DNA from: Flavihumibacter fluminis | GTDB taxonomy: Bacteria; Bacteroidota; Bacteroidia; Chitinophagales; Chitinophagaceae | Direction: 5' to 3' | NCBI RefSeq assembly: GCF_021491375.1 | Contig: NZ_JAKEVY010000002.1 | Span: 744,001-808,000, forward strand | Length of the DNA stretch: 64,000 bases | In this document: positions 2,651 to 59,354 of the stretch, piece by piece | How positions within the stretch are numbered: position 1 is the stretch's first letter | Layout of the letters: the number at the start of each line of letters is the position of its first letter | Translations under genes and position numbers: made by a program | Notes under the pieces: model-generated | Database searches by the model: none | The model's input: only the letters and a program-made list of their open reading frames with translations | What the model was told of the DNA's origin: nothing

Positions 2651-2741
2651 ATGGAATTATGAATTATGAATTATGAAGTTTGAAGTAGGAATTAGGAAAT
2701 AGATGTATTAATTCATACTTCCTAATTCACACTTCTCACTT
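2651..2741. repeat. Heptad repeat array R1 with inverted arms
   Basis: A run of imperfect 7-bp units (ATGAATT, ATGAATT, ATGAAGT, TTGAAGT, AGGAATT, AGGAAAT) is followed by the inverse type (TAATTCA, TACTTCC, TAATTCA, CACTTCT). The two arms could fold on each other imperfectly. Read on the minus strand, the array begins with AAGTGA, the last lysine codon and stop of the HlyD-like gene. The same unit family occurs at 38194, 43086 and 58741. This is seen directly in the sequence; the function is unknown. Confidence 0.8.
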
Positions 2742-38193: not shown

Positions 38194-38266
38194 TGAAGTG
38201 AGAAGTCAGACGTGAGACGTGAGAAGTCCTAGATGTCTTTTTCACCTTTCACTTCTCACCTTTCAC
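38194..38266. repeat. Heptad repeat array R2 with inverted arms
   Basis: It begins at the base after the protease stop codon: TGAAGTG, AGAAGTC, AGACGTG, AGACGTG, AGAAGTC, then inverse units TTCACCT, TTCACTT, CTCACCT, TTCAC. It lies between convergent genes and next to a strong bidirectional terminator. Same unit family as 2651, 43086 and 58741. Confidence 0.8.
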
Positions 38267-38297
38267 AAAAAAGCCGGCATTAGCCGGCTTTTTTTAT
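38265..38297. terminator. Bidirectional terminator between convergent genes
   Basis: AAGCCGGC (38271-38278) and GCCGGCTT (38283-38290) form an 8-bp GC-rich stem with a 4-base loop, flanked by A-runs on the left and T-runs on the right. Either strand therefore shows stem plus U-tract. It serves the protease gene and the DinB-type gene. Confidence 0.9.
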
Positions 38298-43085: not shown

Positions 43086-43155
43086 CTCTCACTTCTCACT
43101 TCTCACTTCTCACTTCTGACGTTTCACCTTTCACTTTTCCCCTTTCACTTCTTCA
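43086..43155. repeat. Heptad repeat array R3 (single orientation)
   Basis: Four near-perfect copies of CTCACTT, then CTGACGT, TTCACCT, TTCACTT, TTCCCCT, TTCACTT. No inverted arm is visible nearby. It covers the end of the exopolyphosphatase gene: the minus-strand codons for its last residues and its TGA stop are part of the repeat. Confidence 0.8.
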
Positions 43156-57138: not shown

Positions 57139-58758
57139 ATGACCCATACAACCAGTCTGTCTTCTGTTAGTAGTCTGCCTTATGCAGCTACCGGATTTTA
57201 TAACGATATCGTACTGGATTATATAAGCGGAGATGAAAAACTTCGTCCTTTTTATCAGCATGCCGTTTCCTGGGCGGGCATGGAAGCTGCAATGAATGCA
57301 CGTGAGCTTGCTCCGGTGAACCGGAAGGTATTGGTGGAAGCATTGGAACAACAATACAAAGCGGCCGGACTGAATGGTGAGGCAGCAGTTGATAAGGCAA
57401 TCCAATTGTTGGCAGAGCCAACTACCTATACAGTGTGTACGGCACATCAGCCCAATATTTTTACGGGATATTTATATTTCATATATAAAATTCTGCATGC
57501 GATCAGGCTTGCTGAAAGTTTGAGGGAGCGGTATCCAACGTCCTCTTTTGTACCGGTTTTTTATATGGGCAGTGAGGATGCCGACCTGGATGAACTGGGA
57601 AAAATCAATCTGGGCGGGGAGAAGCTTGTTTGGAATACAAATCAGAAAGGAGCAGTGGGACGGATGCAAACAAAAGGGCTTGAACCTTTACTGCAACGAA
57701 TTGAGGGCCAACTTTCTGTACTTCCTTACGGCCCGCAATTAGTGGGACTGCTACGAACAGCTTATCTTGGTTCAAAGGATATACAAACCGCCACCTTCCA
57801 CCTGGTGCATGAATTATTCAGGCAATATGGATTGGTGGTGCTGATCGCTGATCAACCAGATTTAAAAAGAATCATGCAGCCGGTATTTGAAGATGATCTC
57901 TTTAATCAAACGGCATCTGCCATAGTAACGGATACGGTTAGTCGCTTATCAACTTCCTATAAAGTACAGGCCAATCCTCGTTCCATTAATTTATTTTATT
58001 TGAAAGATGATATCCGAAACCGGATTGAAAGAACGGAGAATGGGTTTGCGGTAGTAGATACCGGAATTGCGTTTACAGAGGAGGAAATGAAAAACGAGTT
58101 GGAGCAATTTCCTGAACGGTTCAGTCCGAATGTAATCCTTCGTGGTTTGTACCAGGAAACGATTCTACCCAATATCGCTTTTATAGGGGGTGGGGGAGAA
58201 TTGGCTTATTGGCTTGAATTGAAAGAGTTGTTTCAGCATTACAAAGTTCCCTATCCTGTTCAGGTGTTACGTAATTCATTTTTACTGATACCGGAAAACC
58301 TGGCGGCCAAAATTGATCGCATGGGCTTTACCCTTCCTGATTTTTTTCAGCCAACGGATGAATTGATGAATCAACTGGTGAAACGTGATAGTTCTGTACA
58401 GGTGCATTTAAGTTCAGAGTTGCGTGATTCGCAAGCCTTTTATCAGCATCTTCAAAACCTTGCCGGAAAAATAGATACCACCTTGGTGCCCCATGTGCAG
58501 GCATTGGAAAAACAAATGCTGCATCGGTTAAAGGAACTGGAGAAAAAAATGCTTCGTGCTGAAAAAAGAAAATTCAGTGATCAGTCGCGCCAGTTACAAG
58601 CTATTCGAAACATCCTTTTTCCCAATAATGCATTACAGGAAAGAGTAGAGAATTTTCTGCCTTACTATGCACAGCATGGGCCGGCATTTATTGATAAAAT
58701 CTATTCTGAAAGCCCGCCATTGGAACAGGCATTTAGAATTGTGAAGTATGAATTGTGA
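57139..58758 (+). CDS. bshC: Bacillithiol biosynthesis cysteine-adding enzyme BshC
   Basis: 539 residues from ATG 57139; earlier in-frame starts at 57100 (ATG) and 57076 (TTG) exist. 539 is the length I recall for the Bacillus enzyme. Attaches cysteine to glucosaminyl-malate in the last step of bacillithiol synthesis. Motifs: HQPNIFTGYLYFIYKI, YMGSEDADLDELGKI, FIGGGGELAYWLEL and a C-terminal coiled coil (about 445-500, EKQMLHRLKELEKKMLRAEK). The two DinB-family genes in the window could use bacillithiol. The last residues (KYEL and stop) are encoded by heptad array R4. Confidence 0.93.
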   Translation: MTHTTSLSSVSSLPYAATGFYNDIVLDYISGDEKLRPFYQHAVSWAGMEAAMNARELAPVNRKVLVEALEQQYKAAGLNGEAAVDKAIQLLAEPTTYTVCTAHQPNIFTGYLYFIYKILHAIRLAESLRERYPTSSFVPVFYMGSEDADLDELGKINLGGEKLVWNTNQKGAVGRMQTKGLEPLLQRIEGQLSVLPYGPQLVGLLRTAYLGSKDIQTATFHLVHELFRQYGLVVLIADQPDLKRIMQPVFEDDLFNQTASAIVTDTVSRLSTSYKVQANPRSINLFYLKDDIRNRIERTENGFAVVDTGIAFTEEEMKNELEQFPERFSPNVILRGLYQETILPNIAFIGGGGELAYWLELKELFQHYKVPYPVQVLRNSFLLIPENLAAKIDRMGFTLPDFFQPTDELMNQLVKRDSSVQVHLSSELRDSQAFYQHLQNLAGKIDTTLVPHVQALEKQMLHRLKELEKKMLRAEKRKFSDQSRQLQAIRNILFPNNALQERVENFLPYYAQHGPAFIDKIYSESPPLEQAFRIVKYEL

Positions 58759-58841
58759 AGTATGAATTAGAGACTAACACGTAATCCTGATTCTCAATTC
58801 ATACTTCATAATTCTCACTTCTTACTTCATAAATCATACTT
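58741..58841. repeat. Heptad repeat array R4 with inverted arms
   Basis: Left arm GTGAAGTATGAATT repeated, right arm its inverse (CTCAATTCATACTTCATAATT and further units). The arms can pair over about 22 bp with a one-base bulge and a 20-base loop. Left end encodes KYEL-stop of bshC; right end, read on the minus strand, encodes KYDL-stop of purE. A putative bidirectional terminator and stop cassette. Confidence 0.85.
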
Positions 58842-59354
58842 GTTGGGGTTTCCGTTTTGCTTTAGTTTTTCCACTTTTACCAATACTTCTGATTCGAGTT
58901 GTTGCTTGTAGGCGGTTACTTTATTACCAATAGCGCTGTCAAAAGCACCGATCATGGTAGCGGCGAGAATACCTGCGTTTTTAGCTGCATTAAGGGCGAC
59001 CGTTGCTACCGGTATACCATTTGGCATTTGAAGTATGGATAAAACGGAATCCCATCCATCGATGGAATTGGATGATTTGATAGGAACACCTATTACCGGA
59101 AGGGACGTGATGGATGCTACCATTCCAGGAAGATGAGCTGCGCCACCTGCTCCTGCTATAATAATCTTCAGTCCTCTTTCTCTTGCGGTTTGCGCATAAC
59201 TCACCATTCTGAGCGGGGTCCTGTGGGCGGAAACCACGGTCAGTTCATAGGCAATCCCAAATTCTGTTAAGATATCTGCTGCAGCCTGCATAATGGGAAG
59301 ATCAGAATCGGATCCCATTATGATGCCTACCTGTGGATTTGTTGAAGTTGACAT
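58827..59354 (-). CDS. purE: N5-carboxyaminoimidazole ribonucleotide mutase PurE
   Basis: 175 residues, class I PurE. Rearranges N5-CAIR to CAIR in purine synthesis. Phosphate-binding motif [13 protein letters not shown] at the N-terminus, catalytic VVSAHRTP with its histidine, then [14 protein letters not shown] and [22 protein letters not shown]. It lies 41 bp after the TolC-like gene on the same strand. No purK is seen. Its stop is inside heptad array R4. Confidence 0.97.

Follow-up and report, generated by a model that had tools for sequence, protein, structure and literature searches.

Degenerate heptad arrays at gene 3' ends in Flavihumibacter, and an inverted array that holds the stop codons of convergent bshC and purE

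Tandem repeats of 7 nt are found between genes in filamentous cyanobacteria, where they form the STRR heptamer repeats. Direct repeats of another heptamer, TAACTGA, occur in marine Beggiatoaceae, Cyanobacteria and five Bacteroidetes (MacGregor 2015, PMC4679880). According to the parts of that paper that deal with their distribution, the Maribeggiatoa genome holds 169 direct TAACTGA sets and one indirect set, most of them just upstream of a start codon, heptamers related to TAACTGA are rarely repeated, and forward repeats had already been seen to affect the ends of genes. The same source cites long heptamer simple sequence repeats in prokaryotes, for which slippage was proposed (Mrazek et al. 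2007, cited in PMC4679880). The arrays described here resemble the TAACTGA repeats, as these parts of PMC4679880 present them, in being 7-nt tandem repeats with many intergenic sets, forward stops in three frames and some overlaps with gene ends. They differ in three respects. Instead of one fixed unit they consist of degenerate families, with units GT[GC]A[AG]AN and [AGT][TAG]GAA[GT]T and not TAACTGA; they lie mainly at gene 3' ends and not mostly 5' of starts; and they often come as mirror-image plus-minus arms. Inverted arms and gene ends are likewise absent from the passage of PMC4679880 on Mrazek et al. 2007. A literature search, which was also run with five unit strings, returned no account of these arrays; it yielded nothing in print on mirror-image order at 3' ends, on degenerate units or on the retention of sites under fast unit change.

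The locus under study lies in a 64,000-nucleotide stretch of Flavihumibacter fluminis DNA (the window; its genome is G000 below). Here two convergent genes, identified by NCBIfam profiles as bshC and purE, run into the two arms of an inverted heptad array (Table 1). An earlier note on this DNA had claimed that both genes take their stops and the endings KYEL and KYDL from such an array, and the sequence bears this out: BshC ends in FRIVKYEL before a TGA in the left arm, and PurE ends in GNPNKYDL before a TGA (58829-58827, minus strand) in the right arm. The left arm reads GAATTGT, GAAGTAT, GAATTGT, GAAGTAT and GAATTA. The array is where the note had put it (58741-58841), with HMM arms (58731-58769 and 58785-58841) that are slightly wider. 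A hairpin of about 22 bp with a one-base bulge had also been proposed, in good agreement with the main helix of the folded plus strand RNA, in which 19 bp, a one-base bulge and 4 bp make up 23 bp. Folding of the whole stretch gave −35.8 kcal/mol for the plus strand (z −6.9) and −37.1 kcal/mol for the minus strand (z −6.3), with none of 200 shuffled sequences folding as well in either case. The locus thus has a stable hairpin, as intrinsic terminators do, with both stops lying within its stem. Like intrinsic (Rho-independent) terminators, it is a hairpin between convergent genes and is the same on both strands. Unlike them, it has an AT-rich stem that contains the stops and is not followed by a U-tract, no U run being found directly 3' of the stem; ordinary terminators are separate from the arrays at some loci. 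No terminator-like site was found at the array, the sole one in 58500-59100 lying inside purE (59069-59048), and all nine Rfam matches scored under the gathering score of their family.

Table 1. Features of the bshC-purE locus and of the sister arrays in the window
Feature	Position	Strand	Details
bshC (TIGR03998)	57139..58758	+	ends RIVKYEL; TGA 58756-58758 within left arm; start ATG 57139 inferred
Left arm, heptad array (unit family B)	58731..58769	+	TGA-bearing strand is bshC coding strand; HMM, TRF, sequence
Inverted repeat, hairpin possible on either strand	58736..58835	.	main plus strand helix 23 bp, one-base bulge
Loop of 15 nt separating arms	58770..58784	.	from HMM arm ends
Right arm, heptad array	58785..58841	-	TGA-bearing strand is purE coding strand; HMM, TRF
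purE (TIGR01162)	58827..59354	-	stop 58827-58829 within right arm
Sister array, plus-minus arms	2654..2741	.	3' end of a minus strand gene, HlyD-like by eye; TRF, lag scan, HMM
Sister array, plus-minus arms (GTGAGAA/GTGAAAG type)	38195..38266	.	directly 3' of S41 protease gene, then GC-rich terminator; TRF, HMM
Sister array, single minus arm	43087..43152	-	holds stop of Ppx/GppA phosphatase gene, tail VKGEK; TRF, lag scan, HMM

The origin of the two endings was addressed by comparing congeners. Ten of them have the convergent pair (G014, G002, G012, G011, G009, G013, G006, G010, G001 and G003), with gaps of −16 to 47 nt between the genes, and no HMM arm was found between bshC and purE in any of the ten. 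Two further congeners were left out of this set: G005, which is incomplete, and G007 (locus L048), where a purE-like frame downstream of bshC runs in the same direction and not convergently as in the other compared congeners. In Flavihumibacter cheonanensis WS16 (G004) the array and both endings are as in G000, with an array identity of 0.98. G008, which is placed in the same genus and whose BshC is 92% identical to that of the window, has an array of ATGAATT-type units at this junction; its BshC ends in FRIIMI and its PurE in PNNYDL. With none of the ten comparable congeners carrying the array, its origin most likely falls in the lineage that G000, G004 and G008 share. The proposal that it entered the 3' ends of both genes fits such an appearance after the split from array-free relatives.

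The claim that the shared ending stems from the repeat and not from homology holds for one of the two proteins. BshC tails of the ten array-free congeners diverge past a conserved F (QQFIISIL before the stop in G014 and G002, different endings in the others), and so the BshC tail KYEL is array-made. By contrast, PurE ends in N-x-F-D plus 0 to 9 extra residues in all ten. The Y-D of the PurE tail matches this conserved F-D, so that only the last residue and the stop are clearly array-derived; K-Y-D-L overlays the conserved F-D, with the change from F to Y perhaps derived from the array. At the position where an array unit would give GAA, the purE arm reads GAT, as expected if the aspartate was retained. 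Comparison with array-free relatives therefore upholds the expectation of different endings for BshC and only in part for PurE. A short lag-7 stretch (score 9.5) at the purE end of G011 is perhaps an early stage of an array.

What the one-window reading missed is that the array is no lone element. It belongs to a class of degenerate heptad arrays spread over the whole genome and sited for the most part where genes end. In the window, self-similarity at lags 7, 14 and 21 is strong at 2.6, 43.1 and 58.7 kb, and TRF adds a site at 38.2 kb. A scan over lags 4 to 21 gave four clusters at lag 7 (three array sites, with bshC-purE counted as two arms), four at lag 14, two at lag 21, one at lag 6 and none elsewhere. 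Throughout the genome, a degenerate-unit search allowing up to one mismatch found 218+228 places on the two strands, compared with 11+21 for the reversed pattern. Forty loci chosen for such unit places, together with the window, contained 81 lag-7 arrays, compared with 0 to 9 at each of ten other lags. Two unit families were learned by HMM, A (GT[GC]A[AG]AN) and B ([AGT][TAG]GAA[GT]T). The second, to which the bshC-purE array belongs, was added because a single-family HMM missed this locus, and it was seeded with words from bshC-purE and similar loci. In a contiguous 403-kb stretch of G000 that was not chosen for its content, the HMM found 37 arms in 28 clusters, of which 19 are single arms and nine are pairs. 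Reversed sequences still gave 8, 15 and 1 arrays against 37, 37 and 25, the 8 being from the 403-kb stretch read backwards, perhaps owing to partly symmetric units. We therefore turned to third-order Markov copies of the 403-kb stretch (G000 only), and heptad arrays were found in neither of two trials. The anatomy and the family of the arrays are well supported. Units without a stop, such as GTCAGAC, are common (45 of 676). At three loci (L102 4820-4896, L117 3049-3165 and L125 6813-6879) the arrays continue as T-less, stop-free purine heptads such as GGGAGAC and GGAAGAC.

We examined where these arrays lie relative to genes. In the 403 kb, 11 clusters are at convergent, 14 at tandem and one at divergent junctions, and two are inside genes; the junction totals, from genes called by a simple custom caller, are 44, 228 and 45, respectively. 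In eight genomes, 92 of 157 lag-7 arrays are at gene 3' ends, nine at 5' ends and 56 at neither. In the 403 kb and 35 chosen loci, 42 genes of G000 have their stop inside an arm on the same strand, and 37 of these stops are TGA. By hand count, 16 of the 42 have at least 12 nt including the stop in the arm, and the rest have the stop plus up to 6 nt. Among G000 genes with an ortholog in G004, TGA is used by 13 of 14 with the stop in an arm and by 63 of 279 others. The tails VKREK, VKGEK, VKSER, VRREK, KYEL, KYEV and KYDL recur on different genes, and KYEL/KYDL is one case of these array-written tails. A period of 7 cannot be divided by 3, and a run of units with one stop each therefore places stops in every reading frame.

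The arrays also have an orientation: most arms, though not all, have their stop-bearing strand in common with the gene whose 3' end they adjoin. For single arms at tandem junctions, the coding strand is the one used in 8 of 10 cases in the unchosen 403 kb, with two against, and in 17 of 27 at chosen loci, with 10 against. When lag-7 arrays at gene 3' ends were collected from seven genomes, with identical arrays counted once, the coding strand had more frames closed than the other strand in 54, fewer in five and an equal number in 15 (n=74). Part of this signal is forced, because no forward array can extend into a gene without including the stop of that gene. Restricting the test to the 37 arrays with the gene stop outside left 26 for, four against and seven ties (p 6e-5), and the 28 of these from stretches not chosen by pattern gave 18 for, four against and six ties (p 0.004). 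Of the HMM arms that begin only after the stop, 35 have the orientation of the coding strand and eight the opposite one (G000, G004 and G008, which share ancestry). However, the coding strand of the arrays is purine-rich as well, in 68 of 74, so that stops are not the sole property possibly under selection; of random heptads with five purines, 45% contain a stop. Four loci (L109 4962-5026, L110 11591-11627, L118 4721-4747 and L138 8940-8966) show the opposite of the common placement: there a plus gene has its called start 5 to 11 bases after a single minus arm.

The order of neighbouring arms is strongly one-sided. Among 54 arm pairs within 150 nt in sequences of G000, G004 and G008, where an orthologous locus may enter once per genome and such entries are not independent, 50 are plus-minus, none minus-plus, three plus-plus and one minus-minus. 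In G049, from another genus of the family, 13 of the 22 plus clusters listed have a minus cluster at most 200 nt downstream, and none has one upstream (hand count). A replication-strand bias in G049 was considered and set aside: the first matches listed are plus only, minus places lie tens to about 100 bases downstream of many of them, and the order of the list is the likely cause. In a swap test, true partners matched each other better than exchanged arms did in G000 (p 0.001, n=32) and in G008 (p 0.005, n=7); in G004 the difference was not significant (p 0.10, n=11). The unit classes of left and right arms are not correlated in G000 (rho 0.11, p 0.62, n=22), and the share of type B in the two arms shows a moderate correlation (rho 0.42, n=31, p 0.018). 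By eye, the two arms at junctions 8, 41 and 245 clearly seem to have changed together, but the case for concerted change is weak. At 38195-38293 of the window, a heptad hairpin is directly followed by an ordinary GC-rich terminator with a T-run. Both G004 and G008 have kept this terminator, and the heptads have changed.

Sites were kept while their sequences turned over. Among 317 junctions conserved between G000 and G004, arrays are present in both genomes at 18, in neither at 248 and in one only at none, and 51 are not comparable. With G008 included, nine junctions keep arrays in all three genomes, one is without an array in G008 and 119 are empty. The median identity of arrays between G000 and G004 is 0.60 (14 of the 18 shared-array junctions, those with gaps of 40 to 500 nt), compared with 0.95 for 126 array-free intergenic regions (p 1.6e-5); at 0.98, the bshC-purE array is an exception to this turnover. 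Identity with G008 is 0.62 (7) for arrays and 0.87 (66) for array-free regions (p 0.007). The tails of genes with the stop in an arm are somewhat less conserved than other tails, both against G004 (p 0.027, both medians 1.00) and against G008 (0.88 versus 1.00, p 0.012). Recurring 25-28-mers at unrelated loci had suggested copying between loci, and this was rejected, as the sharing of unit strings fits a first-order Markov chain. For strings of 3, 4 and 5 units, observed and expected sharing are 336 versus 323, 36 versus 30.6 (sd 9.8) and 1 versus 2.4 in G000; 18 versus 49, 0 versus 8.5 and 0 versus 1.2 in G004; and 8 versus 15.8, 1 versus 1.4 and 0 versus 0.1 in G008.

Heptad arrays extend beyond Flavihumibacter. 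Exact matches to RTGARNN are present in 51 of 98 genomes of the family and absent from 47, and are present in 43 of 118 genomes drawn from the phylum, among them G000 and a few family members. The reversed-pattern control equals the count in some family genomes (such as G017 and G115) and is higher in several of the phylum survey, so that the counts of such genomes, which are kept in the tallies, are no evidence. When 20 genomes were sampled at 40 kb each, eight of them had lag-7 arrays, most in G017 (16) and G022 (18), and in 12 none were found. Units outside Flavihumibacter include TAAGTAN, TTGAAAR, AATTARG and GTGTAAG; the genera of G017 and G022 thus use units different from those of Flavihumibacter and have the 7-nt period in common. 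Whole-genome searches allowing one mismatch, with patterns picked after stop-bearing units had been seen, gave 185+187 places for TAAGTAN in G017 versus 0+0 in the control, and 544+525 for TTGAAAR in G022 versus 107+109. Just downstream of bshC in G022 (L054) lie intergenic inverted repeats of a different repeat family, GAGACGCAT...ATGCGTCTC.

The reading we prefer is that a mutable heptad repeat is retained at gene 3' ends as an all-frame stop plus hairpin, to which we assign a probability of about 0.45; as to function, neutral tolerance at gene ends comes close behind. For the present locus, the array would have arisen in the G000/G004/G008 lineage, given BshC its new tail KYEL and put a different end and stop on PurE. 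Turnover of units would come from slippage of the 7-nt repeats, with some arm-to-arm copying via the hairpin. The advantage of keeping an array would be that stops in all frames, with a hairpin after them, end the genes of either strand safely: runaway ribosomes would be stopped and, as a prediction on the transcript side, read-through or decay would be limited. In favour of this reading are the size of the class and its place at gene 3' ends, the genes with stops in same-strand arms, the plus-minus order, the orientation of arrays with the gene stop outside, the retention of sites despite turnover and the swap test in G000 and G008. Among the observations that count against it, the single-arm majority (19 of 28) cannot form a hairpin, and the ten congeners with the convergent pair do without the array; others are the lack of a terminator-like site at bshC-purE, the tandem single arms that face against the coding strand, the swap test in G004, the uncorrelated unit classes, the purine-rich coding strand and the common stop-free units. 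The single-arm majority and the array-free congeners are at ease with a neutral account, a serious though tentative contender, in which 7-base duplications and hairpin copying occur anywhere and survive only where they are harmless, after stops, with no function. Forward arrays growing back into a gene would become its new end, and those in promoters or coding sequence would be removed. It was pointed out, in the part of MacGregor 2015 (PMC4679880) on gene ends, that the overlap of forward TAACTGA repeats with the end of a gene cannot exceed 18 nt, which is probably a major factor in their distribution. The near absence of clusters from divergent junctions (1 of 28), the 10 of 27 single arms at chosen loci that face the other way between tandem genes, and the fit of 4-unit sharing in G000 to the Markov null all agree with neutrality. 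What argues against it is that the orientation bias persists with the stop outside the array (26 versus 4, and 35 versus 8 for HMM arms in three related genomes), and that all 18 comparable G000-G004 sites were kept despite fast unit turnover.

Other explanations appear less probable. That the hairpin itself is a bidirectional intrinsic terminator ending both transcripts seems unlikely: the strong fold on both strands speaks for it, and the AT-rich stem and the lack of a terminator-like site at bshC-purE speak against it. Among convergent junctions of at least 45 nt, an ordinary terminator is present in 14 of the 23 that have no array; where there is an array, single arms have one in 6 of 9, long-loop pairs in 3 of 6 and short-loop pairs in 3 of 11. 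The low last figure, which comes from four loci in up to three genomes with all three positives at one locus, favours a terminator role, and on such sequence comparisons the array hairpin may stand in for a terminator. However, several long-loop pairs enclose an ordinary GC-rich terminator and other pairs precede one, and the values for long-loop pairs and single arms, from small and non-independent counts, point the same way. At tandem junctions of at least 45 nt the corresponding figures are 48 of 286 without an array, 1 of 18 for single arms, and 1 of 3 and 0 of 8 for pairs. We consider it improbable that the arrays serve as binding sites, in RNA or in DNA, for a cold-shock protein or some other protein that reads in steps of 7 nt. 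As candidate binders of TAACTGA repeats, the pertinent part of MacGregor 2015 (PMC4679880) named the S1, Csp and CsrA families, and a 7-nt period kept while units differ between genera would suit such a reader; units that differ both between genera and within a genome would not. Least credible is a dispersed REP- or MITE-type mobile element inserted at gene ends. It would explain many similar copies with inverted arms at unrelated loci, yet neither the length nor the ends of the arrays are constant, their units differ from copy to copy and also inside one copy, longer strings are shared no more than a unit-level Markov chain gives, and in two further genera of the family the 7-nt period goes with different units.

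Returning to retention as an all-frame stop plus hairpin, a broader form of it is possible, if on the doubtful side: the arrays may form a class of gene-end punctuation made of self-renewing heptads, with units that vary by genus while the period, the all-frame stops on the coding strand and the mirror order persist. Selection would then keep a reading property and not a sequence, leaving shared tails such as VK[GRS]E[KR] and KYE[LV]. If functional, the arrays would mark gene ends through their period and reading frame instead of their sequence, a kind of signal that motif searches would miss. Even if they are neutral, the repeat goes on changing where ordinary genes stop and which residues come last. 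Because it rewrites gene ends, differences between orthologs of this group in their C-terminal tails can be by-products of mutation, and the tails are not to be read as adaptation.
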